In this document: piece after piece, positions 2,312 to 31,362 of the stretch
Layout of the letters: every line of letters starts with the position of its first letter
Position numbering within the stretch: position 1 is the first letter of the stretch
Assembly (NCBI RefSeq): GCF_025602895.1
Contig: NW_026516222.1
Span: 434,001 to 498,000 of the forward strand
Reading direction: 5' to 3'
DNA from: Polychytrium aggregatum
Taxonomy: Eukaryota; Chytridiomycota; Chytridiomycetes; Polychytriales
DNA length: 64,000 nucleotides
The notes under the pieces: model-generated
Seen by the model: only the letters and a program-made list of their open reading frames with translations
What the model was told of the DNA's origin: nothing
Database searches by the model: none
Made by a program: the position numbers and the translations under genes

Positions 2312-3289
2312 TCAAAGATGCGCTGCTCAGCTTGCTTCTATGTCCTTATCTCTATCCGTGCGCATCTGCTTATCCGTTGCTGTCAATTGCGGACGCTTCA
2401 CCTGTTCATCTTGTGAGTTTGTTGGTTGTGGGAACCTATAGCGTTCCCAAAATGAAACGGGACACCCTGTCCTTAGCCAGGGCCGATGCTGCTTGCTGGA
2501 ACCTGAATACACACCCACCAACTGCTCCCATGGCCAAACAGCGTGCTCACCCGAGTACCTTGATATCGAGGAGCCATGGGGTTGTCAAGAGGGTTGAGTG
2601 AATACACGACACTCCCGCATCGGGTGAATGCACCACACTCCCACATCGACACAGGGGCTCGACCGAGTGTATTCAAGACTCCACTTTCCAAACCGACGAA
2701 AACAAAGAGATTGCCAACCAGGACGGGAAACAATCGCATGGCTTGCCCGCTGGGCCTACAGCCAGTCAGCGGGTTTCAGACATCTGAAGCCAGAAAGTGA
2801 CGGCCCCGTTTCTTTCTGGACCGATTGTATGATCGGTTGGCTGCATTGGTGTGGGGATCGATGGATTAATGTGCTTATCATCAACTCGCTGAGCTGCGCG
2901 GCGTGCTGAAAGCACAATGGGACACCGTATCTGTGAATCAAACTCGTAGTAATTGAATCGTATCATAGGATCAAGTACGTCAAATCCTCTCTGGGTGTCT
3001 GTCGCACGGGCTCCACTCATGATTCCAATATCTCTGTGGTCGGCGTCTCATCACGAGTCCGTCACAGCAATGAGGGGCCAATCGACACTATTCATAATGA
3101 CGGCTCGGAGCAAGAAGGATTCCTTGGATGCAAGCTGCAAGGCAGTGGTATGCAGATCGTCTCAAACACCCATCCTCCATCACGCGTTGTGCTGATCAAC
3201 GCCCAGGTATCAAAGACTGACAGGCCGCTTGCCGTCGTTGGTCTCATCGCCCTCGCCGCCCGTCCGGTCCGGCCAAGACAAACCTGCCA
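2312..3289. other. Intergenic DNA holding the MITE
   Basis: Apart from the small transposon at 2437-2829 I see no gene here. The first 125 bases are the 3' flank of TM-SH3 gene 1. The stretch 2830-3289 has only short unconvincing frames. Confidence 0.4.
2437..2829 (+). mobile_element. Non-autonomous Tc1/mariner-type element (MITE), copy A
   Basis: About 390 bp with TA at both ends. The left end begins TAGCGTTCCCAAAATGAAAC and continues GGGACACC; the right end, read inward, begins CAATCGGTCCAGAAAGAAAC and continues GGGG. It has no credible coding capacity. It aligns along its whole length with the reverse complement of 30671-31075. Shared internal blocks include the CTGGAACCTGAATACAC block, the ATGCACCACACTC block, the GTGTATTCAAGACT block and the GCCCGCTGGGCCTACAG block. 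The terminal repeats follow the same 26-position plan as those of the Fanzor transposon at 19163-22828 (CAG, then about 16 variable bases, then AAACGGGACA). Confidence 0.8.
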
Positions 3290-13177: not shown

Positions 13178-15372
13178 TCACACGAGGTCCGCCGTGTCCA
13201 TTTCTTGGACGCAGGACCATGGAAGGCGGCCTCGTCGTCCGCCAAGTGCCTCGGCCAGAGCCCAGTTGTTGTCGATCGATGCCAGCACCACGACGATTTC
13301 TTTCACGCCGACACTCAGCTCGCTGTCGTCGAGCGACTTGTGCGAGGACACGACGAGGTACTGCTTCTGTGTTGGCGTGCTGACTCTCGAGGAGCTGACC
13401 GGCGCTGGTTGACTAAAGTCGACAATCGAGTCGTACGATGGCGGGGCGAGACCGGTGTCCAGGGCGGTGCCGACGTATGTGCCCGATGCTGCGGCCAAGT
13501 CCGGTGCCGAGAGGGCCAGTGTGGTTGCGGTCGTGGCTGTGGTCGTGGACAGGGTCGTCGATTGAATGGTGGCGGCGCCAATGCCTGATGACAGGATGCT
13601 GTCGGTGGAGGCAACGTTGGGTCTTCCTTCGTCAAAGCCGCCATTGCGGTCGCGGCGTCCGTCGGTTGCGTCCCGGGAGGGCGACGGCGAACGAGCCACA
13701 GCCAGCCTTTCTCGTTCTGTCGACAGCAACGATGCAACGATGAACAGTCGGGTCAGCACAAGGAGCGATGCAAGGAGCGATGCAGGATATGATGCAAGGC
13801 ATGGTGCTGAGAGCACGCCACGGCATGGAGCAGCTTATGGCTTGTGCATGCGGCCTGTTGACCCGCCACCGCGATGCAGCCAATATTCACCTGCAGCGTT
13901 CTTCCCAGCCTCGCGGCGTCGATGGATGACATACAGCGCTGCCACAAAAGCCACGACCAGTGCACCGACGACACCGCCAACAATCGCTGGGATGTTGGGA
14001 CCAGACGATGGCTGCGGTGCAGGTCCAGGTCCAGGTCCAGGCGCAAGACTCGGCGTCGGTGTGTCGTTTGTGCATTTGCCCTTCAGCGTCGGTGAGATCA
14101 TGGTGACGTGACTGCCGACGGCCTGGTTGATGAAGGTCATGCCGGCGGTGTGCTGAAAGTCAAAGCTGCCGTTGAGCCAGTTGGTGGAGAATGCGCTGAG
14201 AGGGATCACCAATGTTTGGCGCTGGCCGCTTGGGACCAGAAAGTCGTAAAGGGAGTGGTATTGAGACTCTGAAGGCCGACCATCGGATGCGGCGGGAGAG
14301 TGGGAGATACGAACGGTGAAGCGCGAGGAATGATGTGGGTCAGCGAGAGAAGGATGAGTGCACGGCGGTGGCCCGCCAAGAGACCAGCTGTCGAGTCGCA
14401 GCCAGAAGACTGCAGGCCAAGCGGCTGGCATGGAGCTCCGCCGAATCACCATGAACGGCACCACACCATCCCACCATCCCACCATCCCACCATCCCACCA
14501 TCCCACCATCCCACCATCACAACATCACAACATCACAACATCATGGCTTGCGCACCTGCGCTGGCAGAGACACCCTGTGGGTATTTGCAATCGACCGAGT
14601 TTTGAGTGAAGACGATGGTAAAGTCGACGCCAGGGTCGATGATGACGTCGGACTGGAAGGTGTCGTACATGGACAAGTCTCGGCATCCCTGCGAAACATA
14701 GCGGACAGAGCAGCGTCAACAATCGCGCACCCGTCCCGGACGAGGATGCCGGTTCGCAGGCTCAATCGGCGGCCGAGGAGACCGGGAATGCGACACGCAA
14801 GCGCAAGCGCAGGCGGAAAGTGGAGACGGAGACGGAGACGGAGACGGAGACGGAGACGGAGACGGAGACGGAAACGACTCCCGGTGCGCCGTTGGAGGGC
14901 GATCTGGGTCGGGCCACAGACTTACCAGCGAAAAGAACCTGATCGGGATGGGCGATGGATATGGATGATGGAGGATGAGATATGGACGATGGGATGTGAC
15001 CGATTGGAGGACGAAGTGATCGAATCGACAGATTGACAAGTTGACAGATCGGTCAGACGAGTCGGCAGCAAACCCCCGCGCCGATCGATCGATCAGACGA
15101 GTCGCCAGCCGTCGCTGCGAACGACAGCACACATACCAGTAGTTGGCCACGGGCGGCATGCCGGGGTGCGTGGAGGCGCTGGAGTTGAACGGCATCGCAA
15201 CGACGGTGAAGTTGCTGTTGTCGACCGACGGCGTGATCATCACAGAAGCGTTGTCTTGCAGCGGGAGCGAGATCCGAGACATGGCTATATCCGGGGTGCA
15301 TGTGGAGGCTCCCGCGAGAGCGGTCGTCGCAGCCAGGATCAGCAGCGTTGACGTCGAGAAGCCCGCGAGCAT
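13178..15372 (-). CDS. TM-SH3 membrane protein (gene 4, right-arm mirror copy of gene 2)
   Basis: This gene has the same exon plan as the gene at 5569-7757, read on the minus strand from ATG at 15372 to stop at 13178. The predicted 429-residue protein appears identical: signal peptide, jelly-roll-like ectodomain, transmembrane helix and C-terminal SH3 domain. The exons show no length differences; the only visible length changes are in intron repeats. Either the duplication is recent, or the arms are kept alike by gene conversion, or one arm is an assembly artefact. If real, both copies have full promoters, because the arm extends about 750 bp upstream of the start. Confidence 0.85.
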
Positions 15373-16240
15373 GGTGAGCAGATGGTGGGCGTGGAGATGG
15401 GGCGGGTGTGGAGATGAGGCGGGTGTGAAGGCGAAGGCGAAACGCGGACAACGGGATTATATCCAACCCAGACCGAGGGGCCATGCGTTGGCTCCTGTGG
15501 CCGCCGGCGAGACGGTGTGACAGTGAGTCGGGGTGTATGGACCGGGGCGAGGGGCGAGACGGAGGCACATCCGACAGCCGCAAGCAGATCAAAGACAAGC
15601 AGATCAACGACAAGCAGATCACAGACAAGCGGGTCCTCAGCCAGATCACAGACAAGCAGGCAAGTGTACACCCAGAGACAAGTGCACATCCAGAGGCAAG
15701 TGTCGACTCGAAGGCAGCGATACGAGCTGTCCGTGGCGCCGGGCCGTGTGGGACGTGGATTGCGACAACGGGATTGTTTCTTGTTGCTCTCCAACCCACC
15801 ACGGTCCCGAGATCGACCAAAGCACAGTGCGCAACACCACTAGCAGAGTATTGCTGTCTTGGACAAGACCTCCTCGTTCGTGTGCTGGGATGGCATGCGA
15901 CAACCTTCCGGCTGTGTCTGGTCTGCCATGGGCCTCAAGGCAGACGGCCTTGCTCTGCCATGGGCCTCGGGCAAACAGCGGCCCGTTCGGCTCTGCCCAG
16001 CGACACTCGGCCTTGTCCATCCTCGTTTGGGTGCGTGCATCGGTCCAAGAGTCGCACGGTCCAAGTGTCCCAAGGCCTGAGTGCCGCACGGCCCAAATGT
16101 CGCACGGCCGTCTCGCCTCTCCGTTCTATTTGCGTTTATCCGATCTGTCGTGGCACAATTATATTCTATTTTGCCGACTCGGTACAGTTGACTCCCTGAC
16201 CACCGACACAACCAAAGCATAGTCCCAACAGTAATCCTGG
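15373..16240 (-). other. Upstream region of TM-SH3 gene 4 and arm boundary
   Basis: Mirror of 4817-5568 up to 16124, then 116 bp of unique sequence before the stop of the glycosyltransferase gene. No gene is supported. Confidence 0.4.
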
Positions 16241-18722
16241 TCAAACGGCGGTGTTCTCAGAACTTGCGTCGGACGTGGCAGAGCGAGCCTTCTGGAGCGT
16301 TCTCTGGACCAGTGCAACAGCATCGCCGATGGGGTTCTCCTTGGCCATCTCGTCGCCGATGCGGTCGCAGTTCTTCTTGAAATACTCGGCCCGGTCCACC
16401 AGGATGTCCTTCAGCGCTCCGACCAGCGTTGAGGTCGAAAAGTCGTCCAGATCGATCACATTGGCGATGCCTCGGTACTTGGCGACCGAGGCCATGAAGG
16501 GTTGGTCAACGACATGCGGCACGATGATAGCCGGGAGCCGGTACTTTGCTGCCGTCTGAGTTGTTCCGGCGCCGCCGTGGTGGACTGCCACATGGCACCT
16601 TGGGAACAGGTAGGTGTGCGGGAACGATCCGACGAGGCGGTAGACCTTCTTCTGTTGGATCATGGTATCCAGTTGCTCTCGGAGTGCATGGTACTTTGTG
16701 TTGGTCGGGTCGGCGGATACATCGTCGGGGCCCCATGAGAATGCAAAGACGGCTCTCAACTTCACACCCTGCGACTCCAGCTCTTGGATGGCCGTGAGCC
16801 AGATGGTCATGTGGTCGATCTCCTTGGTGGAGGTTGGGCCGAGCTTCTGGAGCGAGCCGTATCCAAAATAGACGATCTTTCCGGAGGCAAGGAACTCGTC
16901 CTGGAGATCGAGGGGTGTGTTGGATCAGTGACCGGCTGTGGTGGCAGACGACTTGGCATGTGTGGCCGCGTGTGCTCAAGACGGACAGGCTCAATGTGCT
17001 CGAGACGGACGAAGCCACCAAGCGACACCGAGGACGGATTGATCGAGGCGACTGCTTACCAGCTCAACGGGAGCGGAGAATGGTTCGGCGTACTGATCTG
17101 CTTCCAGCTGGAGAGGACCAGACTGGACGAAATCCATGGTGGGCTTGCTATTGATCGAAACACACAGCAGCGAGGGTGAGTATCATCGTTGGCGTGCCGT
17201 CACAACCACAACCACAACCACAACCACAACCACAACCACAACCACAACCACAACCACAACCACAACCACAACCACAACCACAACCACAACCACAACCACA
17301 ACCACAACCACAACCACAACCACAACCACTACCACAACCACAACCACAACCACAACCACAACCACAACCACAACCACAACCACAACCACAACCACAACCA
17401 CAACCACTACCACTACCACTACCACAACCACAACCACTATCGACATCGTGCTGCTGTCCCGGTACTCACAAATCGGAGGCGATGGGAACCAGTGCTGGGC
17501 TGAAAGTGCAAATAAACGGCATGGCAGCCCGCGCACGAGCCTCCCTGATCATCAGTTGAATGATATCATAGATGGCAGTGATGTACGAAGGCAAGAATCC
17601 GCGGCGGAGTCCCAGTGCTCGTCGTCTCTCTTGAAGGATCGGATTGAAGATCCAGAGGGAGCGGATCCCAAGGGACAACCACTGGTGCGGGCAGCCAGAG
17701 ATACAAAGCGTTACTTTGTGGGTCATCATTCGGCTCTGTGACAGTCGGCTCTGTGACAGGCGTCCCTGGCAGATGACAAGCATGCCGCGGCTCGGGTGTC
17801 AGACCGACTTACGGTCATGAGATTGCTGCGTCTCGCCTTGTCGTTGTCTGGCTGATACTCCAATCCAAGAACAGGGGGTGGGTAGTCCTTCGTGGCCTGG
17901 CTAGGCTGGAGGTAGCAAGCCACAGTCGGGATACCTCGCTTTTCGCACTGTATATGACATCAATGGACAGGGTCAGGGCTGGCAGGGCTGGCAGGGCTGG
18001 AGCAGCGACGCCGGTGCATTGCCATCGCTCGCATCACGAGAGCAGCGTGTGGCTGTTCTAATGGTGTTGGCAGCAACGATCACAGCCAGATGGCGCTGCC
18101 AAACTGAAACTCACGTCCTCTCGAAGCTGCAGAGCAACGTTTGTCAAAATAGCCAGATCGACTCCTTTGAGATGTTCGTCGGCGGTCTTGAAGAAGAACT
18201 TGAGAACAGGGACGCACATCTTTCCAGCCATCGTTGAGGACGGGATTGTGCGGTGTTGATTAGTTTGATGCAAGGTGCAAAATGCAAGACACAGGCTCAT
18301 GTCCCATTATGCGTGTGCCAGTGCATTGGCTCTTACCTGGATGAGAGGCATGATTCCCTTAGTGGTCCCACGGAGCTTGAGAAGCTGGTCGGCCCCCTCG
18401 ACACCGAACCCTTCACTGTTGAGCTTGACTGGGTCGTTCTGGGAGAGGAGGAAGTCGAACAACGACATCAGGAGCGAATCAACTGCGACTGCCGCGATTC
18501 CTTCGGCCTGACAACGATCAGACGAGACGAGCAGGCAATCGCACTCACCTTGAGGTCGAAGTACTCCAATCCTTCTTTGCACACCTTCTCCTCCCACTTG
18601 GCGGGGGCAACGATTCGCACACGGTAACCGCACTGGGTGTGCAGCGCACGGCCAAGAGCGAGCATCGGCATAACATCGCCGGCCGAGCCAAAGGCATAGA
18701 TGACAACGAGCGGAGTGGACAT
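16241..18722 (-). CDS. UDP-glycosyltransferase, sterol 3-beta-glucosyltransferase type
   Basis: Seven exons close in phase: 18722-18549, 18507-18337, 18219-18115, 17947-17813, 17681-17470, 17147-17060 and 16900-16241, giving 514 residues. The N-terminal domain starts with FGSAGDVMPMLALGRAL, the nucleotide-sugar transferase glycine loop of GT1/GT28-like enzymes. The C-terminal half has KIVYFGYGS and the donor-binding signature HHGGAGTTQTAAKYRLP followed by PHVVDQPF. This pattern is typical of sterol glucosyltransferases (ATG26/UGT80 relatives), but the PH and GRAM domains of ATG26 are absent. Expected reaction: transfer of a sugar from a UDP-sugar to a sterol or other lipid at a membrane face; the acceptor is inferred. 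Intron 1 is only 41 bp, while intron 5 is swollen by a CAACCA array. The stop lies close to the right inverted-repeat arm. Confidence 0.88.
17201..17439 (+). repeat. (CAACCA)n hexanucleotide array in glycosyltransferase intron 5
   Basis: About 240 bp of CAACCA units with a few CTACCA variants fill most of the 322-bp intron between the exons at 17470 and 17147. On the coding strand it reads TGGTTG. The array is open in several frames, but the flanking exons join in phase without it. Confidence 0.93.
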
Positions 18723-19162
18723 GCTTGATTGGCAGTGAAGGGGCGAAGGGTGGTGAAGGGCGAAGGGTGGTGAAGGGTGATGAAGGACGACCTGGTTCAG
18801 CTGCGGGCTTGGCTCGCTGAGACGGTTTTCGCTCGCAGGAGCGACTCGGTTCGACAGGAGAGGGTGGCTGGCATTGCCGCACGATGCTGGGACAGGTGGG
18901 GGCGGTGTGCGAATCTTTGTGCCACGATGGTGATACGCAAGGGCTAGCTGGATGCTGCGGTACAATCGTGGCTATCTCGAGTCACAGTCTCTGTTCTGCT
19001 TCCGAGTACTGTCATGAAAGATACGAGACAGAGCACCAGTGATTCGGTGGGCACTCGGGCGTCTGATGTGGAGATGCTGGGACACCGGCAGCAATCGGCA
19101 TTCTGGGCTCTGCGGCGCATTGGCGCCGAAGCAACAGCAACACCATCCCCAGGGACAAATAT
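18723..19162. other. Region between the glycosyltransferase start and the Fanzor transposon
   Basis: 5' flank of the glycosyltransferase gene. It contains GAAGGGTGGTGAAGGG-type imperfect repeats at 18735-18785. No gene is supported. Confidence 0.4.
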
Positions 19163-19164
19163 TA

Positions 19165-19193
19165 CAGGCAATCCAATAAAAAACGGGACACCC
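19165..19193 (+). repeat. Left terminal inverted repeat of the Fanzor transposon
   Basis: Begins CAGGCAATCC right after a TA and contains AAAAAACGGGACA. It pairs with 22798-22826 without gaps. Confidence 0.88.
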
Positions 19194-19248
19194 GAGTTTT
19201 TGACCATTCATCGAATATTTTGTTACCCAATGTTATCGCGCGCTGGCC

Positions 19249-20103
19249 ATGACCATTCGCCACACATCCGACTTTCGCACCGCCGCATTGCGATGCTACG
19301 CCCTCATCCATAGCCTGCGTAAGGTCGCCTCCATATTCAGTGTATCCAAGAGCACCATCCATCGATGGCACCGAGGATGCAAGCTGGATGACCCATCCCG
19401 GGTCCCAGCTCGCAGATCCACTTTCTTTGAGCAGGCATGTCCAGTCATTCGCACCCTGATTGAACAGGACCCGTTCCAGACTGGTCCTGTGTTGCGATGC
19501 AAGCTCGAGTCCATCCTCCAGAGGAAAGTATCACTCTCACTCTGCCACACTGCCATCCACCGAGCAGGTCTCTCACACAAGAGGGCAACACACCTCTACA
19601 AGTCCAAGCGACTGGATGAGCGAGTGGCACAGTTCAGGGACCAGGCCCGCTCCATTGACCCGCGGCGATTCGTTTTTGTCGACGAGACAGGGATCAGGAA
19701 ATCCATTTTCCCTCTCTACGGATACTCACCGAAGGGTGCTCCGCTTCGCCAGCGCAATCACATGAAACACAAGTCTGTCTCGGCTGCATTTGCCATCAAC
19801 CACTCTGGTGTGCTGCATCGCATGTACATCCCCACATCATTCAAGACACACTCGATGGTCGAGTTCTTTGAGCGAGCGGCCTTCCCAGATGACTCTGTGA
19901 TTGTAATGGACAATGTCAGCATGCACAAGACAATGGCTGTCCTGGACTGCATCGAGCGCCGAGGATGGTCAGTGGTCCTCGCCCACCTGCCTCACCCGAC
20001 ATTCAGGGTCGGGATGGTGACCCTGTTCGAGTCCGCCGTGCGGAGGGTGCTTCCAGATGTCTTCCCACGGCTGATTGAGCGAGCGATGCGCTTCTGGGGT
20101 TGA
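19249..20103 (+). CDS. IS630/Tc1-mariner family transposase, catalytic C-terminus apparently damaged
   Basis: 284 residues in one frame. The N-terminal part (about 10-45) is a helix-turn-helix of the IS630/Tc1 type with KVASIFSVSKSTIHRWHRG. Next come a second DNA-binding region and the DDE core: the first Asp in FVDETGI and the second in VIVMDNVSMHK. Family members then have a SPDxNPIE-like motif about 34 residues later that supplies the third acidic residue. Here that segment reads LPHPTFRVGMVTLFESAVRR and lacks the motif. The adjacent frame of the same DNA reads SPDIQ, so small paired indels probably removed the catalytic glutamate while keeping the frame open. The gene is likely inactive or in need of help in trans. 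It lies 84 bp inside the left end and is followed by the Fanzor gene. Confidence 0.85.
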   Translation: MTIRHTSDFRTAALRCYALIHSLRKVASIFSVSKSTIHRWHRGCKLDDPSRVPARRSTFFEQACPVIRTLIEQDPFQTGPVLRCKLESILQRKVSLSLCHTAIHRAGLSHKRATHLYKSKRLDERVAQFRDQARSIDPRRFVFVDETGIRKSIFPLYGYSPKGAPLRQRNHMKHKSVSAAFAINHSGVLHRMYIPTSFKTHSMVEFFERAAFPDDSVIVMDNVSMHKTMAVLDCIERRGWSVVLAHLPHPTFRVGMVTLFESAVRRVLPDVFPRLIERAMRFWG

Positions 20104-20220
20104 GTTCCCTCCAATCAAGCCGCCATTTTCACGCTCAAATCCCTGGCTTGAACCTCTCGGCGATTTTTGAACAGGGTCACTTCCCCAACCAGCCCGCGCA
20201 GACGGGTTCCTGCTCTCGGG

Positions 20221-20227
20221 TATAAAT
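20221..20227 (+). promoter_or_regulatory. Candidate TATA box of the Fanzor gene
   Basis: TATAAAT lies 129 bp before the Fanzor ATG, with a pyrimidine-rich stretch downstream. It falls between the transposase stop and the nuclease start, suggesting the Fanzor has its own promoter inside the transposon. Confidence 0.45.
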
Positions 20228-20355
20228 GCCACACCTTCGTCCTGCTGCTTTCTTCCCTCATCTCGCCTTGATCTGATCATTGCGCCATTGTACGATAAAG
20301 AGAAGTCTCTGTTCTGACCAGTACCACTGGCAGGCATCCAGCATCCTCTGCCCCC

Positions 20356-22728
20356 ATGCCTCCGAAGCGTAAGGGTACCGGTGATGGCCAGCCTCGGCCA
20401 CCCAGGCCCAAGAAAGCCAAGTCACAGTCGGAGCCTGTCTCTGGTTCGTATTCTGATCTCACGCATGCTTGGTCGTCTGTTGCTCCGTCGCTCACCACCA
20501 CTGCTTCTGCAGATCCAATGGATGTCGATCCCACCGAGCCTGGTCCATCTACTTCCTCGAGTACCGGCAAGCGATGTCGCCAGTGCGATGGCACCGATCA
20601 CGAGCGAAGCAACACTAGCAAGTGTCCCAAATACCGGCCCCTCAAGAGTTCTGTCGTCCCACTCGTGGATGGAAGGTCATCCGCCCCTCAATTCGGCTGC
20701 TTCAAGCAGACGATGGATGGCTGTTGTCTCAATCCCGCTCTCCGCGACAAGATCCAGGCCACCGTCGAGGCCATGACCCAGATCCAGTTCGAGGCATCCA
20801 GGCTGCTCAACCTGCACATCCTCCGGTGCATCGAGCAGGATATTCCCATCCCTGTCATCTCCAGGGCCACCCCTGCTTTCATCCGCCAATGCTTCAAGAT
20901 CGTCCAGGACGGTGCCCTCTCCCCGACCGGGGACATCGAGCAGTACAACGAGCATCTGGTCGCTTCTTTTCGCGACTACCAGACCACTCGGCACGCAGAC
21001 CTGCCTCCGGCCCCTCGTCTGCCTGATGGTGCTCACAGTCAGCTTCTCACACTGGCTGTCAATGCCTATGCCACCAACTGCACCACCCACCTCGACCTGG
21101 CCTACTGGCGACTCCTTCGCCGTTTCTGCGCTGCCGTCTTCCCAGCCAACAAGCACAAGCACGAAGCCATCGAGGCCTGTCTCGAGCTCTTCGAGAAACC
21201 AGGGCAGACTCCACCCAAGGCCGATCTCGAGTTCCTCTATCCAGACTTTGGCCACGTCCTGGACGAGTTTCGGTACAGCAACGACCAGGACCGCTTCCGG
21301 GCCCTCCATCGCCTCTCACACCATGTGGGAATCCTCGCCCGAGACAAGATGGTCGACAATGTCCACAAGTGGATCGACTGTGACATGCCCGCCCTCCGAG
21401 TCACCGAGCTGCAGCGCCAGGCCAAGCTGGACAGCCTCACTACCCAAGGCATTCCCTCCGACGACAAGAGGTTCACCACGGCCAAGTCTGAGCTCGGCAC
21501 CACCAAGGCCAAGATCAACAAGCTGGCATCCAGACTCAAGTGGGGCCTCAAGCAGCTCACTCTTGACACTCCTCCGGCCGTGTGCACGATGGTTCCTCTG
21601 TGCACCACCAAGGCCAAGTATGTCAAGATCGACACGGCCACTCTCTGGGATCTCCTTGACTCCGAACATCGTCTCGGCCTCACCCGGGACATGCTCAAGG
21701 AAGAAGGTGAGGACGGTATCAACAACCAGGATCGTCTCTGGCGCAGTTGCTTCAAGCTGCGTAGTTCCCTCTTCCAAGAGCGGGTCAGGGACAAGAAGCT
21801 GTTCAACTACGAGATCAGCACCGATGGCATTGGATGCACCATCGGCCTCGTCAAGTTTGTGCCTCGAACCGATCACACCGAGACCATCGAGCCTCCTCCG
21901 ACTGCCGAGCAGCGCATCCAGGCCCACATCGGCAACCCAGACCCCGACAAGACCACTTGGATTGGCATCGATCCTGGAGTCGGCTCCATCTTCACGGCGG
22001 TCATCCAAGCACCGGGCCACCAAGACGAGGTGGTCTCATTCTCCAATGGCCACTACCAGCACATGTGTGGCCATACGTCCAACACCAAGTGGCACAATAT
22101 CATGAAGTATCGACTCAGCATCGAGACCTGGATGTCGACCACCCCCTCGCCCAAGGTGTCGTCCTCGGAGGCCTTCAAGATCCATCTCACCCATGTCCTG
22201 CGACCGGAGCTGCGAGTGCAGCTCAATTTCCACCTTGGCAAGAAGGCCCGTCACCATCGCTTCACGGGCCACAAGAGGCGCCAAGTGGCGGTCGACAAGA
22301 TGTGCAAGGCCGTCCTGAAGCACGCCCCGATACGGACCGATGTGGTGATCGCCTTTGGCAATGCGTCATGGCGACAAGGCAAGGGCTATGCATCCAGCCC
22401 TCGGAGGCAGCGGTTTGCTCAGTACTTTGAGCAATTCGAGCACCACCGACGCCGTCCCAATCACCATCATGGAAGCGTCAGGGTGGCCTCGACGAACGAG
22501 TTCAACACCTCGCAAGTGTGCTCCAAGTGCCTGGAGCCAGTTCGGTTGGAAGGACTCGATGCGCCCAGTGTTGCGAATTCCCACTTTGTCAGGAGCTGCA
22601 AGAATCCCAGCTGCCGGACAGTGTGGAATCGCGACGTCAATGCGGCGCGCAACATGATCACAGTATGCAGGTCGATTGTGGAGATCGGAGAGCGACCGGC
22701 GGTCTTCACTCGGAGGCTGCCAAAGTGA
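20356..22728 (+). CDS. Fanzor RNA-guided nuclease (eukaryotic TnpB homologue)
   Basis: 790 residues, one exon. The N-terminus carries two basic nuclear-localisation-like clusters (PPKRK, RPKKAK). At about residues 74-90 is a Cys/His knuckle (CRQCDGTDHERSNTSKC). A long helical region follows. The RuvC nuclease lies in the C-terminal third: RuvC-I with WIGIDPGVGSIFTAVI (Asp); a RuvC-II region with VVIAFGNASW, where the canonical Glu is absent; a zinc ribbon CSKC...CKNPSC; and RuvC-III with NRDVNAARN (Asp). The Glu of TNEFNTSQVC lies 47 residues after the missing RuvC-II position, as in Fanzors whose active-site Glu is relocated. All key residues and the frame are intact, so the enzyme may be active. 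Expected role: DNA cleavage guided by an RNA from the element's right end. It is encoded in a Tc1-type transposon downstream of a decayed transposase. Confidence 0.93.
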   Translation: MPPKRKGTGDGQPRPPRPKKAKSQSEPVSGSYSDLTHAWSSVAPSLTTTASADPMDVDPTEPGPSTSSSTGKRCRQCDGTDHERSNTSKCPKYRPLKSSVVPLVDGRSSAPQFGCFKQTMDGCCLNPALRDKIQATVEAMTQIQFEASRLLNLHILRCIEQDIPIPVISRATPAFIRQCFKIVQDGALSPTGDIEQYNEHLVASFRDYQTTRHADLPPAPRLPDGAHSQLLTLAVNAYATNCTTHLDLAYWRLLRRFCAAVFPANKHKHEAIEACLELFEKPGQTPPKADLEFLYPDFGHVLDEFRYSNDQDRFRALHRLSHHVGILARDKMVDNVHKWIDCDMPALRVTELQRQAKLDSLTTQGIPSDDKRFTTAKSELGTTKAKINKLASRLKWGLKQLTLDTPPAVCTMVPLCTTKAKYVKIDTATLWDLLDSEHRLGLTRDMLKEEGEDGINNQDRLWRSCFKLRSSLFQERVRDKKLFNYEISTDGIGCTIGLVKFVPRTDHTETIEPPPTAEQRIQAHIGNPDPDKTTWIGIDPGVGSIFTAVIQAPGHQDEVVSFSNGHYQHMCGHTSNTKWHNIMKYRLSIETWMSTTPSPKVSSSEAFKIHLTHVLRPELRVQLNFHLGKKARHHRFTGHKRRQVAVDKMCKAVLKHAPIRTDVVIAFGNASWRQGKGYASSPRRQRFAQYFEQFEHHRRRPNHHHGSVRVASTNEFNTSQVCSKCLEPVRLEGLDAPSVANSHFVRSCKNPSCRTVWNRDVNAARNMITVCRSIVEIGERPAVFTRRLPK

Positions 22729-22797
22729 TCTGTTTTATTTCTTGTGGCTTTGCTTGACGCAAGCACAGCACATACTACATGTTCATGGAAACGTCTA

Positions 22798-22826
22798 TGT
22801 TGTCCCGTTTTTTTCTGAATAAAGTG
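22798..22826 (-). repeat. Right terminal inverted repeat of the Fanzor transposon
   Basis: Read inward on the minus strand it begins CACTTTATTCAGAAAAAAAC and continues GGGACAACA, followed outward by TA (22827-22828). It matches the left repeat at 20 of 29 positions without gaps. Confidence 0.85.
22818..22823 (+). terminator. AATAAA polyadenylation signal inside the right terminal repeat
   Basis: AATAAA lies on the coding strand 90 bp after the Fanzor stop, in the outer part of the right terminal repeat. The Fanzor transcript would therefore probably be cleaved at or just beyond the transposon end, into flanking DNA. Confidence 0.5.
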
Positions 22827-22828
22827 TA

Positions 22829-22856
22829 TAGCGAGCTCGTTTTGAAACGGGACACC
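22829..22856 (+). repeat. Solitary terminal repeat of a related element abutting the Fanzor transposon
   Basis: TAGCGAGCTCGTTTTGAAAC followed by GGGACACC starts immediately after the TA at the right end of the Fanzor element. It fits the same 26-position plan as the MITE ends (compare TAGCG...GAAACGGGACACC at 2439). It points away from the Fanzor element, and I found no matching opposite end within the next few hundred bases. Confidence 0.7.
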
Positions 22857-23496
22857 TTCACACACAGATGACTTGCGTGACTTGTTGAATCAGACGACTT
22901 TCGTCGGCCCGAACTCCATAAAATCCGCTCGCCGAGGTCCTCCCGGCAATATTGCTCTTTGCCCTGCGTCTTTCTCCCTCATCCCAGATATGTCGTCTTG
23001 CTCTGGCCTGCAGCGACTGTATCTGCAGTGACTCGCTGGTCCCCGTCGTGCCCACTCACTCCATGCATCTCCCTCACAGGGAAATGACTTGACCCACTTG
23101 AGCGAGTGTGCGATATGATCCGACTACGCCGTGTTTGTCCGAATGAGGCGATATTTCATTTTTTCTTCATCACACTGTATCACGGCCGATGGAGCAGCAC
23201 TGAGACATCCCAAAGGTTTCGTTCTATCGGGGGACAGCTCTCCGCCAATCAGACATGGCTCCGATTCCTCTACCTCCGAGGCCAGTGGGAGTCGATAGAA
23301 TTCACCCTGTCGTCATCCGCTGACCTCACCTCGCCCGATCGACACCAATCGGTCCTCTCATCGTGCTCAGCCGATCTCGTCCTCTCCCCGAGACTGAGCA
23401 CTTGCAGCCACCACTTCCCGTCAACTTCTTGACGAGCGTCGCGAGCTTGACAACATCGGCTTCTTCTCGAACTTGCATCGTGCTCTGCTTGCCTCG
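22857..23496. other. Intergenic DNA before the GPCR gene
   Basis: No coding feature is supported. It contains the 5' flank of the receptor gene; no clear TATA box was recognised. Confidence 0.35.
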
Positions 23497-26400
23497 ATGA
23501 AAGCAAGACCTTTGGTGTTCATAACAACAATCGCCCTGGTCCTTGGCCTGGGCGGTTGTCAACCGCCGGCTGGCGTCAATGTCCAGAGCCCGCTCAACTA
23601 CGCCTATCCCGCTGCCTATCCCGTCCATCCCAGCAAGGTCAATGCATCCCTTCTCCGAATCGGGGTCTTTGGCTGGTTCAGCGCGCCTTTGATGCCCGAT
23701 GATGGAGGCACATGGGCAGCCGGCCTCGAATCTGCTGTTCACCTGTGAGTCAAATCAGCCATAGATCTGTCCGGCAAATAGGCATCATGTTGCGACGTGA
23801 CCGAATGGCCCGCTGCAATTATCCTCGGAGCTGCGAGTGCCAGTGATGATGACCATCATTCTATCGGTTGCAAAGATACCTCTCGGTCCAGGCCGCCATC
23901 GACGAGACAAATGCCAAGTAAGACTCAGTGCTATTGCGGCGAGGATGGATACCCCGAGATTCCAGCCCGCTTCGCTTTCTCTCCGTTCGTTGGAGAGCCC
24001 TCGCGATTCCAAGCGCGTCAGTCCCAGTACTAAGACCTTTGCTTCACACCGCAACTTCTTCGACCAAATTTCGTCCTGCCAGCAATGCTCTCCTTCCCAA
24101 CGTGGTGAGTCTGCACTCCAATACAAAGACTTGTTGTAGACCAGCGTTTCTCACGCGCAGAATCGACATCCAGCGGCTCGCCCTCGAACCAATCGACATC
24201 TACGGCAGCAACGACCAACTCCGGATTGCCAACTCGGTGAGTCCCCAAACTATCTCAGTGGACGAAATGAAACAAAATCACTGTGCCGTCCCATGCGCCA
24301 TGCTAATTCCACAACCGCGTCCACCATCACTTGCAGTATCTAATGGCTCAGGCGGCCATTTCAAGACACCGATATGCTGCGTTTATAGGTATTGTCCTCC
24401 TGTTGATCCGCAGACCGAGTACGGATGCACTGGGTTTGTGAAACTAGCGTATTATGCCTGATCCGTCGGCTCATTTCCAGGCGACACCACCGATGTACTC
24501 TACGACAACACCAAGACAACATCTGCCCAGGCCATGATGGCGGGCGAATTTAACATCCCGGTACGCTTGTGAATCTGCATAGTAAAGGACCGCCGGCAAT
24601 GTATGATATTGGGAATGTCACACACCTCGCGATACCTCAAACTATATATCGAGCGATGCCCGTGTTTACTAAGCCCCGCTATCGCAGTACTGTTCACCAA
24701 TATCTGTGGATGACTCGGTATGTGATTGTCGGATGCATATTCACGGTGTTCAGTACCTTCGTTGCTGATGGGGTTTGGAGGAAGCAGGATCACGGATTGG
24801 CATGACTGGATATTAGTTGTGTTGAAGTTCCAGATGAAAGGATCGCCCAGTTAGTAGCCACGCAGTTGATCGAAAGCAGAACTACTAACCCATCCCGCAT
24901 GCTACATCGTCTGCGTCTTGGCTACAGTTCAACGACAAGAGCAAGTATCCAACACTCATCCGAACGGTCGGAACAGCTGTACCGGCAGGCGCCAGTAAGT
25001 GCCCGAATCTTGCTTTGGGCACATGCAGACCACTGTGGGCTGAAAACGAGTCGACCCGCATCTTAGGCACTGACTCAGTAGACACTTTTGCCCTCAGTCT
25101 AATCACTAAAATCACGATGATCTGTTCAGCTGTTGTTGACTGGGTGCTTGCGATGGGCTGGACCAAGGTCGTCCTGGCCGTCACAGTACGTATCAAAAGA
25201 ACCGCATGCCCCTGCCTTTGCGGACTGTATTGGTCTGCTAAAGCTCCATCCTGTTGTTCAGCAGTCGATGGGCACTGCTTTCGTTCCAATACGATCGTAA
25301 GCTGACATTCGCGTACTATCTCTGGCACCAGTGCAAAATCAACGACCAGTACGGATACCTTTTTCTCCAAGGATTCCTGGCGAGGGCCCAGTACACGGGT
25401 CTCACCATCCTCGACACCATCTACTACTACTGCAACGCTTCGCCAGACTTTTCTGCAAACGACTTTGTGACCCCGGTGCAGAGAATGAAGGCCACTAACG
25501 GGAAAATCATTATATCCCTCGGAAATATCGGCCCGTCGTCGGTACTATATGCACAAGTATGTGTGCACGCGCCGAGCATGTCACAACAATTGTCAACCGA
25601 TGGGTCATGAGGTTTCTGCTATCATTCGGCAGTCATATTGACCTGAATTGAGATGATCCAGATCATAAACTACCGTCTATGCTCACCACTATCGCCTCGT
25701 CTTTTCTCTGTAGGCCATGTATGGATACCTTTCGCAATGCATCTTTGCCTGTTGATATGCTGGATCAATCTTTACCTATCATAGAGTGTTCGAAAGCTGC
25801 CTTTCCGTGGCAAAGGATATTTGCCGATGATCATGAATTCGTAGTGAAGGACTAATGCCTTCCTGCCATTGGCACCTGCTTGGCATTTGCACTTGCCTGG
25901 CATTTGCACCTTCTTGCCATTTGTATCTCCTTGCAATTTGCACCTTCTTGGCATGCATTCGGTTGTCATTCTCTTGCTCACACTCGTGTTAACACTCACG
26001 CACCCTATCTGCCGTTACAGGCAAGCAGGTTTGACAACCTCGGACTATGTGTGGTTTATGGCTGGCGGACGGTGGGCTGCCTCGGACTATGCCAACTTTT
26101 TCCAAACTCCAAGCAATCTGGCCGCAAGCTACTATCCGGGCAGAGCCATCCAAAGCTCGGATTTGCCCACGTACGGTTGATCTGCAGCGTATCGGCCCGC
26201 TGCGTTGGACACACGCTCGTACGATTCTGGCTTGCCAAGCAAACTGCTCTGACACGACCAACTGTGCTGCCTTGTATCCCCGGACACTACACTCGTCCTC
26301 GAAATATTCCGACTCAAACGCGTTCAGATACTTTGGACTGTGGGTATTGGTTTAGAGCAGCAATCCTCTGTGAGGGATGTCGTGTACTGCCCCCCGTGTC

Positions 26401-29400
26401 CACGCATCATGTCTGAATCTCGTCAATCTTCATCCCCATTTGTCGACTCATCCTGTGCCATCCAATCATCGGCTTGCTCACTGTGACAATCTTCTCTGCG
26501 CATCTCATTTGTCTTTGCCACAGCGACGGCCCAGTCAGCTACTGGCCGAATAATCCACAGTGGCTCAAGTTCAACCAAACGTGGTCGACCTACAACCAGA
26601 GATCGCTCACATACGCACCTGGAGGAGCACACGTCGTTATGCCGTGAGTTAACAACCGACTGGGTATCCGCTTCACCTCACAGTCGGTGATACACTAATG
26701 AACGCACGACCCCTGTTCTCCCTCAAACACCGATAACCAGAATGACGTACGACTGCACATTGGCAATGATCTATGCCTTTGACAACGTATGTCTCAGCAC
26801 GCCTGGAATTTCGGCTGTTGTGTGGGGATCTTCGTGCGGAAGGAATCGAAAGCGGTATATGCACACCTCACTGAATCTCTCACATCTCCATGCAACACTG
26901 GTGTCACAAACAGCTCCTTCGGGTTTATCCAAACACCGTCACTCTGTCAGCCATTGCCCAAGGGGGACTGAGTCGGCAGTACACAACACCAGCCATGTTT
27001 TCGCTGGGCCAGCCTGGATCGTGCGGTCCCCTCTTGTTTGACAGTATGTATGAGTGAGGGTTGTGTGTGTGGCGGGTGGATCATTGAGCAAGTCAGCGAG
27101 ACGTCTATGACTATCGATTGATCAGCGGCACTCAAGGCGCTTGATATTCATATCTTGCGTCTTTCCATTTCGCAAAGATGAGGGCAACTTTGAGTCTGGG
27201 TAAGACGCTTTTCTGTCCATACAGCACAACCTAAATCCAGCATCACCGCCGAAAGGAGACCGACATGCACAACTCAGCACATGTCTAGGACATGCCACGC
27301 ATTCGTATTTGCAACTACGACCTGACTCAAATGTCTCTTCATTCGATACTCCGTGGATTCGCAGAGGCATATCCATCCAAATGATTGTAGGTTTTGTGTT
27401 TGCATTCGTTGGCACACCAACACTTGTGTACTATGTTTGGAACTGCAATTGACTACTGCCGGTCGACAGAGAAACGACAACACCTGGAATATGGCGACCA
27501 TCACGTTGATGGGGAACTTTTCATACGCCTCCACCAACGTCAAGATCGAGCAGGGTCTGACTCCGGCAGCCTGGTTCCAATTCTACTACAATGTCACGAG
27601 TAAGCGAGCATGATTGGATTGGCAATGATGAGGGGGGGGGAAGAAACTGGATTGGACAGAGATGCAAACTTGACGCACAGGCGGGGCGATTGTTTTGCTT
27701 GTGTTCGACTCACCACATGATTTTGCTGTCTCCGGCCCTTTGTTCATGGAATGATGACTGAATAACTGCCCAAACAGCAAACGTCACGGTCCCGGTCGAC
27801 TATCCGCCGATCATCCAGACAAACGAGACATTTTCGACTGCGGCTGCTCCAGTAGTGATTATCACACTGCTGATTGTTGCACTCCTGGGCGTCCTGTATT
27901 TCTCGTTTACGAACTACCGGCAGCCTGCCCATATCAACATCACGTTCTTCCGCTTTGGTAAGGAGCATGACGGCGCCGGCTGCACTTGTATGGCGGCATC
28001 GGTATTGACCATCCGGACATCTTGCTTCTTTCCGGACCTCATAACCGGCAATGTGACGGCTTCTGTGGTGCCATCATCTTCCCCAGCTGTTGCCTCGGCA
28101 ATCGTCGCATACTGCACCTACTTTTTCTTTGTTGGCATCCCAACGAACACCATCTGTACCGCACAGACGTATCTGCTGGCGTGGGTTTTCGCCATGTGCA
28201 ATGGGTGAGTAGCTCCAATCCTTTCCTGCAGGTCCTCGTACGCTGTGATTCACGGAAGTTCCCGTAGCAACCAACTTTGTTCCGAATTTCGGTCTGCTCT
28301 AATCCATGCCGATTTCTTATATCGCAGTGCATTCTTGGTCAACTCGTTTGGTAAGATGTAGCCGTCAAAGAGGGGTTTCATGAAGACAGTGTCCAGAGCA
28401 TTCAAAGACAGCTGGATGCGCCACCTTGAAGGCAGATGACCCGGGGCCATGGAGCTGACGATGCTCCACCGGATCGTTTCGCACTCAGGCCAGCGCCGCG
28501 TTACTCTGTGCAAGTCGTCGGACATGATCAAGAAGGCAGTCTCCTCGAGACCTATGATATTGGCGACGACGGGAAACGTGGTGCTAAGTTGGGTACGTGC
28601 TCGCCGAGCTTTCGGCAGCCCCAGACCGACATCCGTGCGTCGTATGAGTGGCTCGTTGGTTCGTCCGAATTCAAAGCTGGACAGGGTCATCGATGACTTT
28701 GATACTGATATCTGGTAAACATGCTCACCGCCGCTCATTTGCAGATCCTGTGCATAATCTCTGACCGCCGCGATCCTCGCGTCGCCGTGAACATCTCAGT
28801 CTCAAACCTCCACATCTATACTCTCTGCAAGAGCACAAGTGGCCAGGGATGGACAACAGAGCACACCATCTTGATCATCTTCCAGGGTATCCTCCTGATT
28901 GTGGCTATCTGGAACACATGGTCGTTTACCAAGTCGCCGCTGTTGAGGTAAAGGCGATGCTGGCAACGAAGGAGGATGGGGGGAGATGGATAGTCATTGG
29001 TGTTGATGGTTTCTATGCAGTAGCGGGGCGAGGTAAGCTCGCCACGGAGGCAGTCTCGATTCTCAGCTGAAATCTGTCGCTCCCTTCATCCAGAACTCAA
29101 GCACAGCTGCTTTTATTGGGAGTGGCGTAAGTACCGATACAGGCATACGAGCGCCGGAACGCTTGCTGTTGATGGGCCTCGTCGGAGATTCTGCGAGCTC
29201 ACGGAGAGCGGGCGTGTGACGTGAAGTGTTTGATACAGAGGCGACTTGAACTTGACACCATGCTGACTTTACTTGGCTCGATCACATGGGTTCGATCGTC
29301 TGGGCGTCAATGGTGTCTGCCAGCCATATGCTGGTGCTTACACTGGTCTTTGCCGGTCTGCTGTCAAGCCCTGTGATGGTTGGGTACATGTTTGTGCTTC

Positions 29401-30070: not shown

Positions 30071-30670
30071 GTCATAGGACCGCACGGCGTTCGCGGCAGC
30101 TGCGACCTGTGGCGCTTCCATCGGTTCGGACGATTGGCGGAACCCGGCATCCTGTGCAGATTCAGCAAGTTCCGGGGACTCGGCGGGGTTCTTAGCTTGA
30201 CAATCTCTATCAGTATCCCATGGCAAGCCATGACGCTGCCTCACGGCCCGGCAGCATCCAACAAACACCAGCTAGAACCAAAAGCTGCGGCCAAGCACAC
30301 ATGCATAGCCAAGCATGAGCACTTCTGAATATGGAGGCTCGATTTCAATCTTTTGTTCATCTCACGAGTGCGTGTGGTCTGTGCACAATGGAGCAAGGGG
30401 GGGGGTGGAAGACATGCAGAAGCTTGGGGAGTGGTGTGCAACACGGCCGCTTACGGATATAATACACACCCGCACTCGCTCGAACTGTTTATTGCACCGG
30501 ATCATTGTGAGGCTAGGAATAATCGAGTCCCATGTCCCATTTGCCAAGAACGGCCAACGGCAGTGCGATGGTGATAACGAATCAAGGAGATCACGTCCTC
30601 GGCATCCGTTTACGATACCAAAACGCGTGCGAGATGTCTCAAATCGAGTTTGTCTGTATTGGATGTAGTG
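30071..30670. other. 3' flank of the GPCR gene
   Basis: No gene is supported. A GGGGGGG run lies at 30401-30407. The MITE copy B starts at the right edge. Confidence 0.35.
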
Positions 30671-31075
30671 CAGTCTATCCCGAAAGAAACGGGACAGTTC
30701 CTTCCTGGCTTCAGATGTCTGAACCCCGCTGACTGACTGTAGGCCCAGCGGGCAAGCCATGGCATTGCACTCCTGTCTTCGTTGGCAATCGCTTTGTTTT
30801 GGTTGGTTTGGGAAGCACAGTCTTGAATACACCCGGTCGATCTCCATGGGCGATGATCGACTGGCATACCGAGATCATGTTCCTTGAGGCATTGATGTCT
30901 CGATGTGTGAGTGTGGTGCATCCACTCGACTCTCTGGACAGCTCAATGATATCTCGATATCAAGATGGTGCTGTGTTTGGCCATGAATGCGATGAGTGGT
31001 GGGTGTATTCAGGTTCCAGAAAAAATATATTTCCTGGTTAAAAACGGGGTGTCCCATTTCATTTTGGAAACGCTG
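30671..31075 (-). mobile_element. Non-autonomous Tc1/mariner-type element (MITE), copy B
   Basis: About 405 bp in the opposite orientation to copy A at 2437-2829 and clearly homologous along its length. One end reads CAGTCTATCCCGAAAGAAAC then GGGACAG from 30671. The other, on the minus strand from 31075, reads CAGCGTTTCCAAAATGAAAT then GGGACACC, followed by TA. The TA expected at the 30671 side is not intact (GTG precedes it). There is no coding capacity. The ends share the plan of the Fanzor transposon ends. Confidence 0.82.
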
Positions 31076-31362
31076 TATACACTAAAATACTAAGACACTA
31101 AGACACTAAGTCGGACAGCGGAGCGCACCGCGAAATAGACACTGCGGCGACATGTGGATTGGCGATGACAGGGTAAGCGGATAGCTAGCGAAGGGGAAAA
31201 GCGGAGGCTCCGCAATCTATGGCAATGACACGAACGGCTTGACTGAAGTGACTAACGCTCGGGACTGAGTCGGTGATACTGGCAGCTTGGTAGCTCCAAG
31301 GCCAGGCGAAAAAGGTCGGCGATGGGCTGGGGGCGACGACACCAAAGCAAAGGTACGATAGG
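31076..31362. other. Short intergenic stretch
   Basis: Holds an ACTAAAATACTAAGACACTAAGACACTAAG short tandem motif at about 31080-31110 and the 3' flank of the gene ending at 31363. Confidence 0.35.

Follow-up and report, generated by a model that had tools for sequence, protein, structure and literature searches.

Insertion-site scars suggest that a Fanzor helps a Tc1/mariner-type transposon of Polychytrium aggregatum copy itself back into empty sites

We analysed a stretch of 64,000 nucleotides from Polychytrium aggregatum (contig NW_026516222.1, positions 434,001 to 498,000 of the forward strand; hereafter the window, numbered from its first letter), in which an earlier note had recognised a complete, TA-flanked Tc1/mariner-type transposon carrying a DDE transposase and a full-length Fanzor, a eukaryotic RNA-guided nuclease. 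The element occupies positions 19163-22828, with TA at 19163-19164 and at 22827-22828. As had been described, its 29-bp ends (CAGGCAATCCAATAAAAAACGGGACACCC and CACTTTATTCAGAAAAAAACGGGACAACA) match at 20 of 29 positions and share a 13-bp core; a match of at least 20/29 was reached by none of 300,000 random pairs drawn from window positions 15,001-27,000. The left terminal inverted repeat (19165-19193, + strand) has the canonical CAGGC start in this copy and is conserved in others, and it is matched by the right terminal inverted repeat (22798-22826, - strand). Between them, on the + strand, lie open reading frames (ORFs) for a Tc1/IS630-type transposase (19249-20103, 284 amino acids) and for a Fanzor1 nuclease (20356-22728, 790 amino acids), the latter intact as claimed.

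Further copies, which the earlier note had proposed to look for, proved to be numerous in the genome searched (64.7 Mb, 418 contigs). The left-end core occurs 462 times at two mismatches or fewer, compared with 0 occurrences of a reversed-pattern control, and at least 57 Fanzor copies, the window's own included, were scored among 1,272 candidates, the other 56 being 93-95% identical to it across essentially the whole protein. The 462 left ends stand in unrelated flanks, in keeping with multi-copy mobility, and include both haplotypes as well as the shortened copies (ghosts) and hybrids described below. Both haplotypes are probably assembled, since many contigs pair with identical flanks, and there are therefore fewer loci than copies; counts of distinct loci given here omit L006 and L017, which are second copies, and L027. 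Thirty of the 57 scored copies, chosen by Fanzor match, were read. Beyond TTA...GTGTA the sequence differs entirely among them, some flank repeats aside, and their similarity to the window spans positions ~19162 to 22828 and then stops, except in unrelated flank repeats, which places the boundaries where the earlier note had drawn them. Nuclease genes without these ends would have spoken against that assignment; both ends were found in 29 of the 30 copies, the exception being L027, from which the standard left end is absent. The right-end dinucleotide (22827-22828) is TA in 35/36 distinct loci and CA in one (L126), and it is preceded by GTG in 35/36. Terminal inverted repeats together with insertion at TA, which is shown to be the target by the scars reported below, are those of Tc1/mariner (IS630-Tc1) elements.

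The transposase claim stood in part. The window ORF is of Tc1/mariner type (PF13358, E-value 2.8e-12), but this copy is defective: the longest copies measure 3744 bp against 3667 bp for the window copy, and the 77 bp absent near 20002-20005 hold the NPIE motif, which carries the third catalytic residue. With its transposase broken, the window copy can therefore probably move only in trans. A 310-amino-acid protein with the NPIE motif is encoded by 5/27 distinct Fanzor-bearing copies (L007, L015, L020, L021 and L023), whereas in the remaining 22 the transposase is extended, shortened, shifted, or was missed by the script. The two aspartates and NPIE follow in the usual DDE order in family copies, not in the window copy; the L007 protein matches DDE_3 (PF13358) at an E-value of 9.5e-20, and in L014 34 residues, counted by eye, separate the second D from the E. 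The ratio of nonsynonymous to synonymous polymorphism (pN/pS) in the transposase is 0.19 (first 190 codons, 27 copies). At least 150 DDE_3 matches were obtained genome-wide among 335 candidates, and no obviously different, Fanzor-free Tc1 family was apparent among the 150 listed, as judged by frame lengths and places.

The nuclease is a Fanzor1 by several marks. Its ORF matches the Cas12f1-like zinc-finger domain PF07282 (E-value 7.4e-9) and conforms to the published Fanzor motif, D-X(125,275)-[TS][TS]XX-C4 zinc finger-X(5,50)-RD (PMC3627910, accessible text), with D539, then T718-S719-Q-V ahead of the zinc-finger residues C722, C725, C748 and C753, then R759-D760. Candidate catalytic residues are D539 (21970), E692 (22429) and D760 (22633), all invariant in an alignment (A1) of the window Fanzor with relatives from the same genome. 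The DPG signature and a relocated glutamate are named as Fanzor1 signatures in the accessible part of PMC10711439; the first is present as GIDPGVGS at D539, and E692 is the candidate for the second, being invariant and assigned by position only, while the presumed place of the usual E reads FGN (FDN in L003). In profile searches with A1 the closest solved structures were Fanzor1 proteins, SpuFz1 (8gkh, E-value 8e-4) and GtFz1 (9cer, E-value 0.04), neither of which was found by a single-sequence search with the window Fanzor. When viral contigs were scanned once with the Fanzor, there was a single pattern match, and no relative could be confirmed.

The copies also fix the insertion target, which the earlier note had expected a whole element to reveal, as TTA (19162-19164, + strand): the target TA and a nearly invariant preceding T. 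T precedes TA in 33/36 distinct loci and, genome-wide, at 190/198 CAGGC-type left ends, with another base in 8. The rule is one-sided, because the base after the right TA shows no matching preference for A (8/36). One-sidedness of this kind is like that of a Fanzor target motif, and we predict that TTA serves as the target-adjacent motif of this nuclease; for SpuFz1 the accessible text of PMC10432273 gives the target motif CATA, with a conserved CA ahead of the left repeat.

A natural exchange of parts bears on the source of this rule. In hybrid elements, the window family's left end and transposase are followed by a Fanzor that is 39% identical to the window Fanzor and by a right end of another type (...TTGACTGTA). 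One hybrid, L037, in which alone the transposase-half identity was measured, is 96% identical over ~1,000 bases of that half, followed by an abrupt break. The second Fanzor type has open frames of 850-932 amino acids, ~39% identical to the window Fanzor (L153 at C2:39400-42400, L154 and L155), and in L153 it sits on the window family's left end and transposase. Hybrid left ends start with CAGCC, or with CAGTC in one verified case. T precedes TA at 7/13 CAGCC and 8/12 CAGTC ends, and its frequency differs between CAGCC and CAGGC ends (Fisher p 3.6e-5). Eight of the 13 CAGCC ends are verified hybrids, seven by the right end (one probably a second copy) and one by the Fanzor gene, and the window family's right end was seen in none of the 13, the module type having been read for 8; among the CAGTC ends, 1/12 is verified. 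Restricted to verified distinct hybrids, T is found in 4/8, as against 33/36 distinct loci (p 0.014). On these comparisons the TTA rule appears to track the Fanzor/right-end module better than the transposase, and the two halves are, to judge by their sequences, exchangeable modules. The earlier identification of a Fanzor1-bearing Tc1/mariner-type element with these ends is thus supported with additions: a broken transposase, a large family with ghosts and hybrids, and exchangeable transposase and Fanzor/right-end halves.

Ghosts indicate which part of the second half is retained. A pattern search in contig order returned short ghosts at 5/30 left ends (L033, L040 and L042, ~313 bp; L046 and L050, 1.1 kb), and the 11 distinct ghosts read comprise eight of 308-314 bp in two deletion classes and three of ~1.1 kb. 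All retain at least ~168 of the element's last bases, Fanzor gene end included, which is much longer than the inverted repeat requires. This right-end module (22613-22828, at minimum 22661-22828, + strand) is the predicted guide-RNA scaffold, overlapping the end of the Fanzor gene. For Fanzor1 guide RNAs, the available portion of PMC10711439 describes a scaffold that includes the target-site duplication, with the guide starting after it; by that precedent, the copies place the expected guide, which the earlier note had held to be predictable, directly after the right-hand TA (22829-22848, + strand). Synonymous diversity is ~0.01 in Fanzor codons 721-760, where the average is 0.09, as might be expected if the end of the gene also had a role as RNA; conversion or chance is as good an account, because the block of codons 41-60 is equally low.

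These observations bear on the possibility that the Fanzor is a passenger, in which case TTA would reflect what the transposase or the left end prefers, and aberrant transposition or gene conversion would account for the scars described below. Tc1 elements can move without a Fanzor, and hybrid left ends do differ slightly (CAGCC or CAGTC versus CAGGC). Against a mere passenger, however, the Fanzor is under purifying selection (pN/pS 0.29, 26 copies), it is intact in 26/27 distinct Fanzor-bearing copies, a count biased by the choice of copies by Fanzor match, and the ghosts keep a right end well above the repeat's need. We therefore consider this account highly improbable.

The most informative marks lie at the left junctions. 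The scar sample consists of 42 loci with both ends read: 21 with the standard CAGGC start, 18 with variant first bases and three with other left-end changes that look inherited (L002, L012 and L028). Ten of the 42 (L126, L127, L128, L132, C2, C102, C168b, C386, C124a and L044) were followed up for their variant left ends before their flanks were known. At 16/18 variant left ends, the first 1-9 bases after TA are the bases that follow the element's own right TA, for example GTGGC/gtggc (L004, L025), AGAGC/agagc (L015) and TAGTCAATC/tagtcaatc (C102); in L044 the left tract TCCCGC was seen first, and the right flank, fetched afterwards, reads tcccgc. Summed over the 18 variant loci the shared prefix is 76 bases, compared with a shuffled-flank mean of 8.6 and a maximum of 32 in 20,000 shuffles, whereas the 21 standard loci share 6 bases in sum, where ~7 are expected by chance. 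The return to the normal left end is in register in 13/16 scars. For the 15 scars with a prefix of at least 2, resemblance of the target to CAGGC peaks at offset 0, with 2.4 of 5 bases versus 1.2 in standard loci (permutation p 0.0007), while at offsets 1-5 it is 0.7-1.8 for scars and 0.8-1.6 for standard loci. No scar was found at 36 right ends; the one right end of the 36 without GTG (L013) does not match its own left flank.

Two candidate readings of left-end sequence were dropped. CGGGC left ends are not scars in general, as those of L002 and L012 mismatch their flanks and look inherited there. The extra T is not a part of the element: TA and its preceding base derive from the target, because the tract in scarred loci directly follows TA and continues like the right flank.

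Where target sequence follows TTA at the left junction, the site must at one time have been empty, have been broken to the right of TA and have been repaired from an element. Homology-directed repair off an occupied partner would leave a register set by the left flank, a short match where the switch occurs and a right junction that is exact. The insertion-site marks thus suggest that the Fanzor helps the element copy itself back into empty sites. The family, its ends, TTA, the scars with their one-sidedness and register, and the module swap are observed directly, whereas we infer the guide RNA, the cleavage and the attribution of the cut to Fanzor. In the cycle that we propose, transposase supplied in trans by intact copies would insert elements and ghosts at TA, and the right end of each copy would yield a guide RNA in which the flank immediately beyond the right TA acts as the guide. 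Fanzor would then recognise TTA followed by that flank, a combination found only in the unoccupied site of the other chromosome or chromatid, and would cut downstream of TA, whereupon repair would copy the element in from the occupied partner. A left broken end keeping a few target bases after TTA could pair in register with the element's left end through short matches (e.g., GGC) and prime synthesis, thereby leaving a target-derived tract at the left end only. Fanzor1 proteins cleave on this side of the motif: the accessible text of PMC10432273 has GtFz1 cutting 14-17 bases after its motif, a distance beyond the longest tract seen (9 bases). That a Fanzor1 with a right-end guide RNA, housed in a Tc1/mariner-type DDE transposon, spreads by such a homing cycle is the reading we lean towards, with somewhat better than even confidence. 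For the further-reaching proposition, a natural RNA-guided gene drive in a eukaryote, in which a DDE transposon's Fanzor cleaves the empty chromosome beside TTA, homologous repair copies the element in, the left-end tracts are a fossil record of homing and the ghosts ride along as guide-only elements, we put the chances at even.

Several observations weigh against the proposed homing. The base change at the left end of hybrids means that the TTA rule is not tied to the Fanzor alone. In a replicate on 22 loci of a sister family, whose right end was recognised in 6, the 4 of these with variant left ends share 1, 0, 1 and 1 flank bases. The fold of three right-end stretches, compared with shuffles, gave z-scores of -1.2, -2.0 and +0.3. 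Within the family, the variant left ends of C386/C400 and C124a mismatch their own flanks, L003 and L044 are out of register, L046 requires one extra change, and eight further variant left ends have no right end in the fetched stretches. Non-T sites, which a strict TTA motif would not predict, make up 3/12 scars within the set of 36 distinct loci (L003, CTA; L029 and L128, ATA) versus 0/21 standard loci (p 0.04). Finally, no empty site was found: among the joined flanks of 31 loci, with 40/104 candidates scored, no match spans a joint fully, 21 loci being matched essentially one half at a time, with a break where the element is inserted (14 of them on two contigs), and 10 having no listed match, so the TA duplication rests on the scars.

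The excess of non-TTA sites among scars favours an aberrant, Fanzor-free transposition in which the transposase joins only the right end to the target, while extension of the chromosome's left end on the uncut strand, followed by joining through microhomology to the left end of the element, duplicates a few bases of the target. Target bases at one end and an exact other end would likewise result, with no nuclease needed. This account, however, predicts scars at either end, where none is seen at 36 right ends; it sets no register, where 13/16 scars keep that of the normal left end; and it leaves the change of the T before TA with the Fanzor/right-end module unexplained. We regard it as unlikely.

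Differences between paired contigs introduce the other repair-based alternative. Of 15 loci represented on two contigs, 3 have a full-length element in one contig opposite a shortened element at the same site in the other (L004 on C223 with C156; L019 on C398 with C246; C79 with C9), and in two of the three pairs the unusual left end is common to both members. The C156 ghost is no simple deletion of L004, because several right-end positions differ, which points to copying between dispersed elements. Gene conversion between copies thus seems common here, and an ordinary mitotic or meiotic conversion between occupied and empty chromosomes, initiated by random breaks and with no part for Fanzor, would explain both register and microhomology as short left-end conversion boundaries. 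Random breaks, however, would also leave right-end boundaries, of which there are none in 36, and would rarely fall within ten bases of TA; we hold this explanation to be improbable.

Related repeats occur nearby and elsewhere in the genome. The window holds two short sister-family elements, one at 2437-2829 (+ strand) with a CAGCG-type left end and a GACTGTA-type right end, and one at 30669-31077 (- strand); T precedes TA at 11/22 sister-family left ends. Facing pairs of these left ends lie within ~270 bases of each other at C223:320673-320945, C223:766219-766488 and C325:15531-15800, like small elements with two left ends. Several elements stand at the edge of another related-looking repeat with a AAACGGGACACC-type end, at 22829-23180 in the window, in the right flanks of L008, L024 and L029 and in the left flank of L134, and in L134 a sister element directly follows the window family's right end; it may be that related elements target one another at their edges. 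At another locus (L156, C124:405200-407300), a 476-amino-acid ORF combines a MerR-like start, a resolvase-like stretch, judged by eye, and a TnpB/Fanzor2-like nuclease in one frame, the MerR-like and resolvase-like parts together resembling IS607 TnpA; this ORF is matched 5 kb away in opposite orientation on C124 and again on C379. Window positions 17189-17500 are ~300 bases of short repeat, open in several frames (HN, QP and V runs).

Saito et al., who demonstrated Fanzor activity, describe the role of Fanzor cleavage as unknown (PMC10432273, accessible portion). The present genome is well suited to such an inquiry, in that the family runs to hundreds of copies, its intact members encode their own transposase, and different Fanzor modules have been exchanged naturally on a common transposase backbone; in addition, the TTA motif and the guides can be predicted, and the junction scars provide a countable trace of earlier repair events. 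Mariner elements with Fanzor1 genes entered the literature in 2013, among them relatives whose 3' parts had been exchanged (PMC3627910); a search of the open-licence literature, which leaves most subscription papers outside, turned up neither left-end scars, nor a TTA rule that follows a swapped Fanzor module, nor a demonstration of Fanzor homing in eukaryotes. What is new is therefore the scars and the naturally occurring swap, elements of this kind having been described before.

As far as the accessible texts go, the closest parallel is SPu-1/SpuFz1 of Spizellomyces punctatus (Bao and Jurka 2013; Saito et al. 2023), likewise a Fanzor1 within inverted repeats and putative TA duplications, present in many copies, accompanied by ghosts that retain the end with the guide RNA, and with additional conserved bases ahead of the left repeat (CA + TA, giving CATA, in SPu-1; T + TA here). 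It is recorded at 42 Fanzor loci and 134 ghosts, compared with 462 left ends here, which count both haplotypes, ghosts and hybrids. Unlike the intact copies here, SPu-1 has no transposase reported inside its repeats in the consulted part of PMC10432273, and left-end scars do not figure in the SPu-1 text accessible to us. PUl-1, PGv-1 and related Mariners, as excerpted from Bao and Jurka 2013, also combine Fanzor1 and a Mariner-type transposase within a single TA-flanked unit, and four related Mariners have the 5' transposase part in common but diverge in their 3' parts; here, in contrast, two Fanzors have been swapped together with their respective right ends, inside a single genome and in more than one copy, and the target rule shifts along with the swap. 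Homing of this kind has been proposed for bacterial TnpB (PMC8612924, available text), and the logic proposed for ISDra2 TnpB in the accessible part of Karvelis et al. 2021 is alike, in that the empty site is cut beside the target motif and recombination restores the element; ISDra2, however, is a bacterial single-strand TnpA transposon, whereas here the element is a eukaryotic DDE transposon and the evidence consists of genomic scars, not experiment. KolobokP (Kojima and Bao 2022, in its accessible portion) also pairs a DDE transposon with a second nuclease proposed to aid its spread, and differs in that this is a group I intron-derived His-Me homing endonuclease, in an element of another superfamily with long terminal direct repeats.

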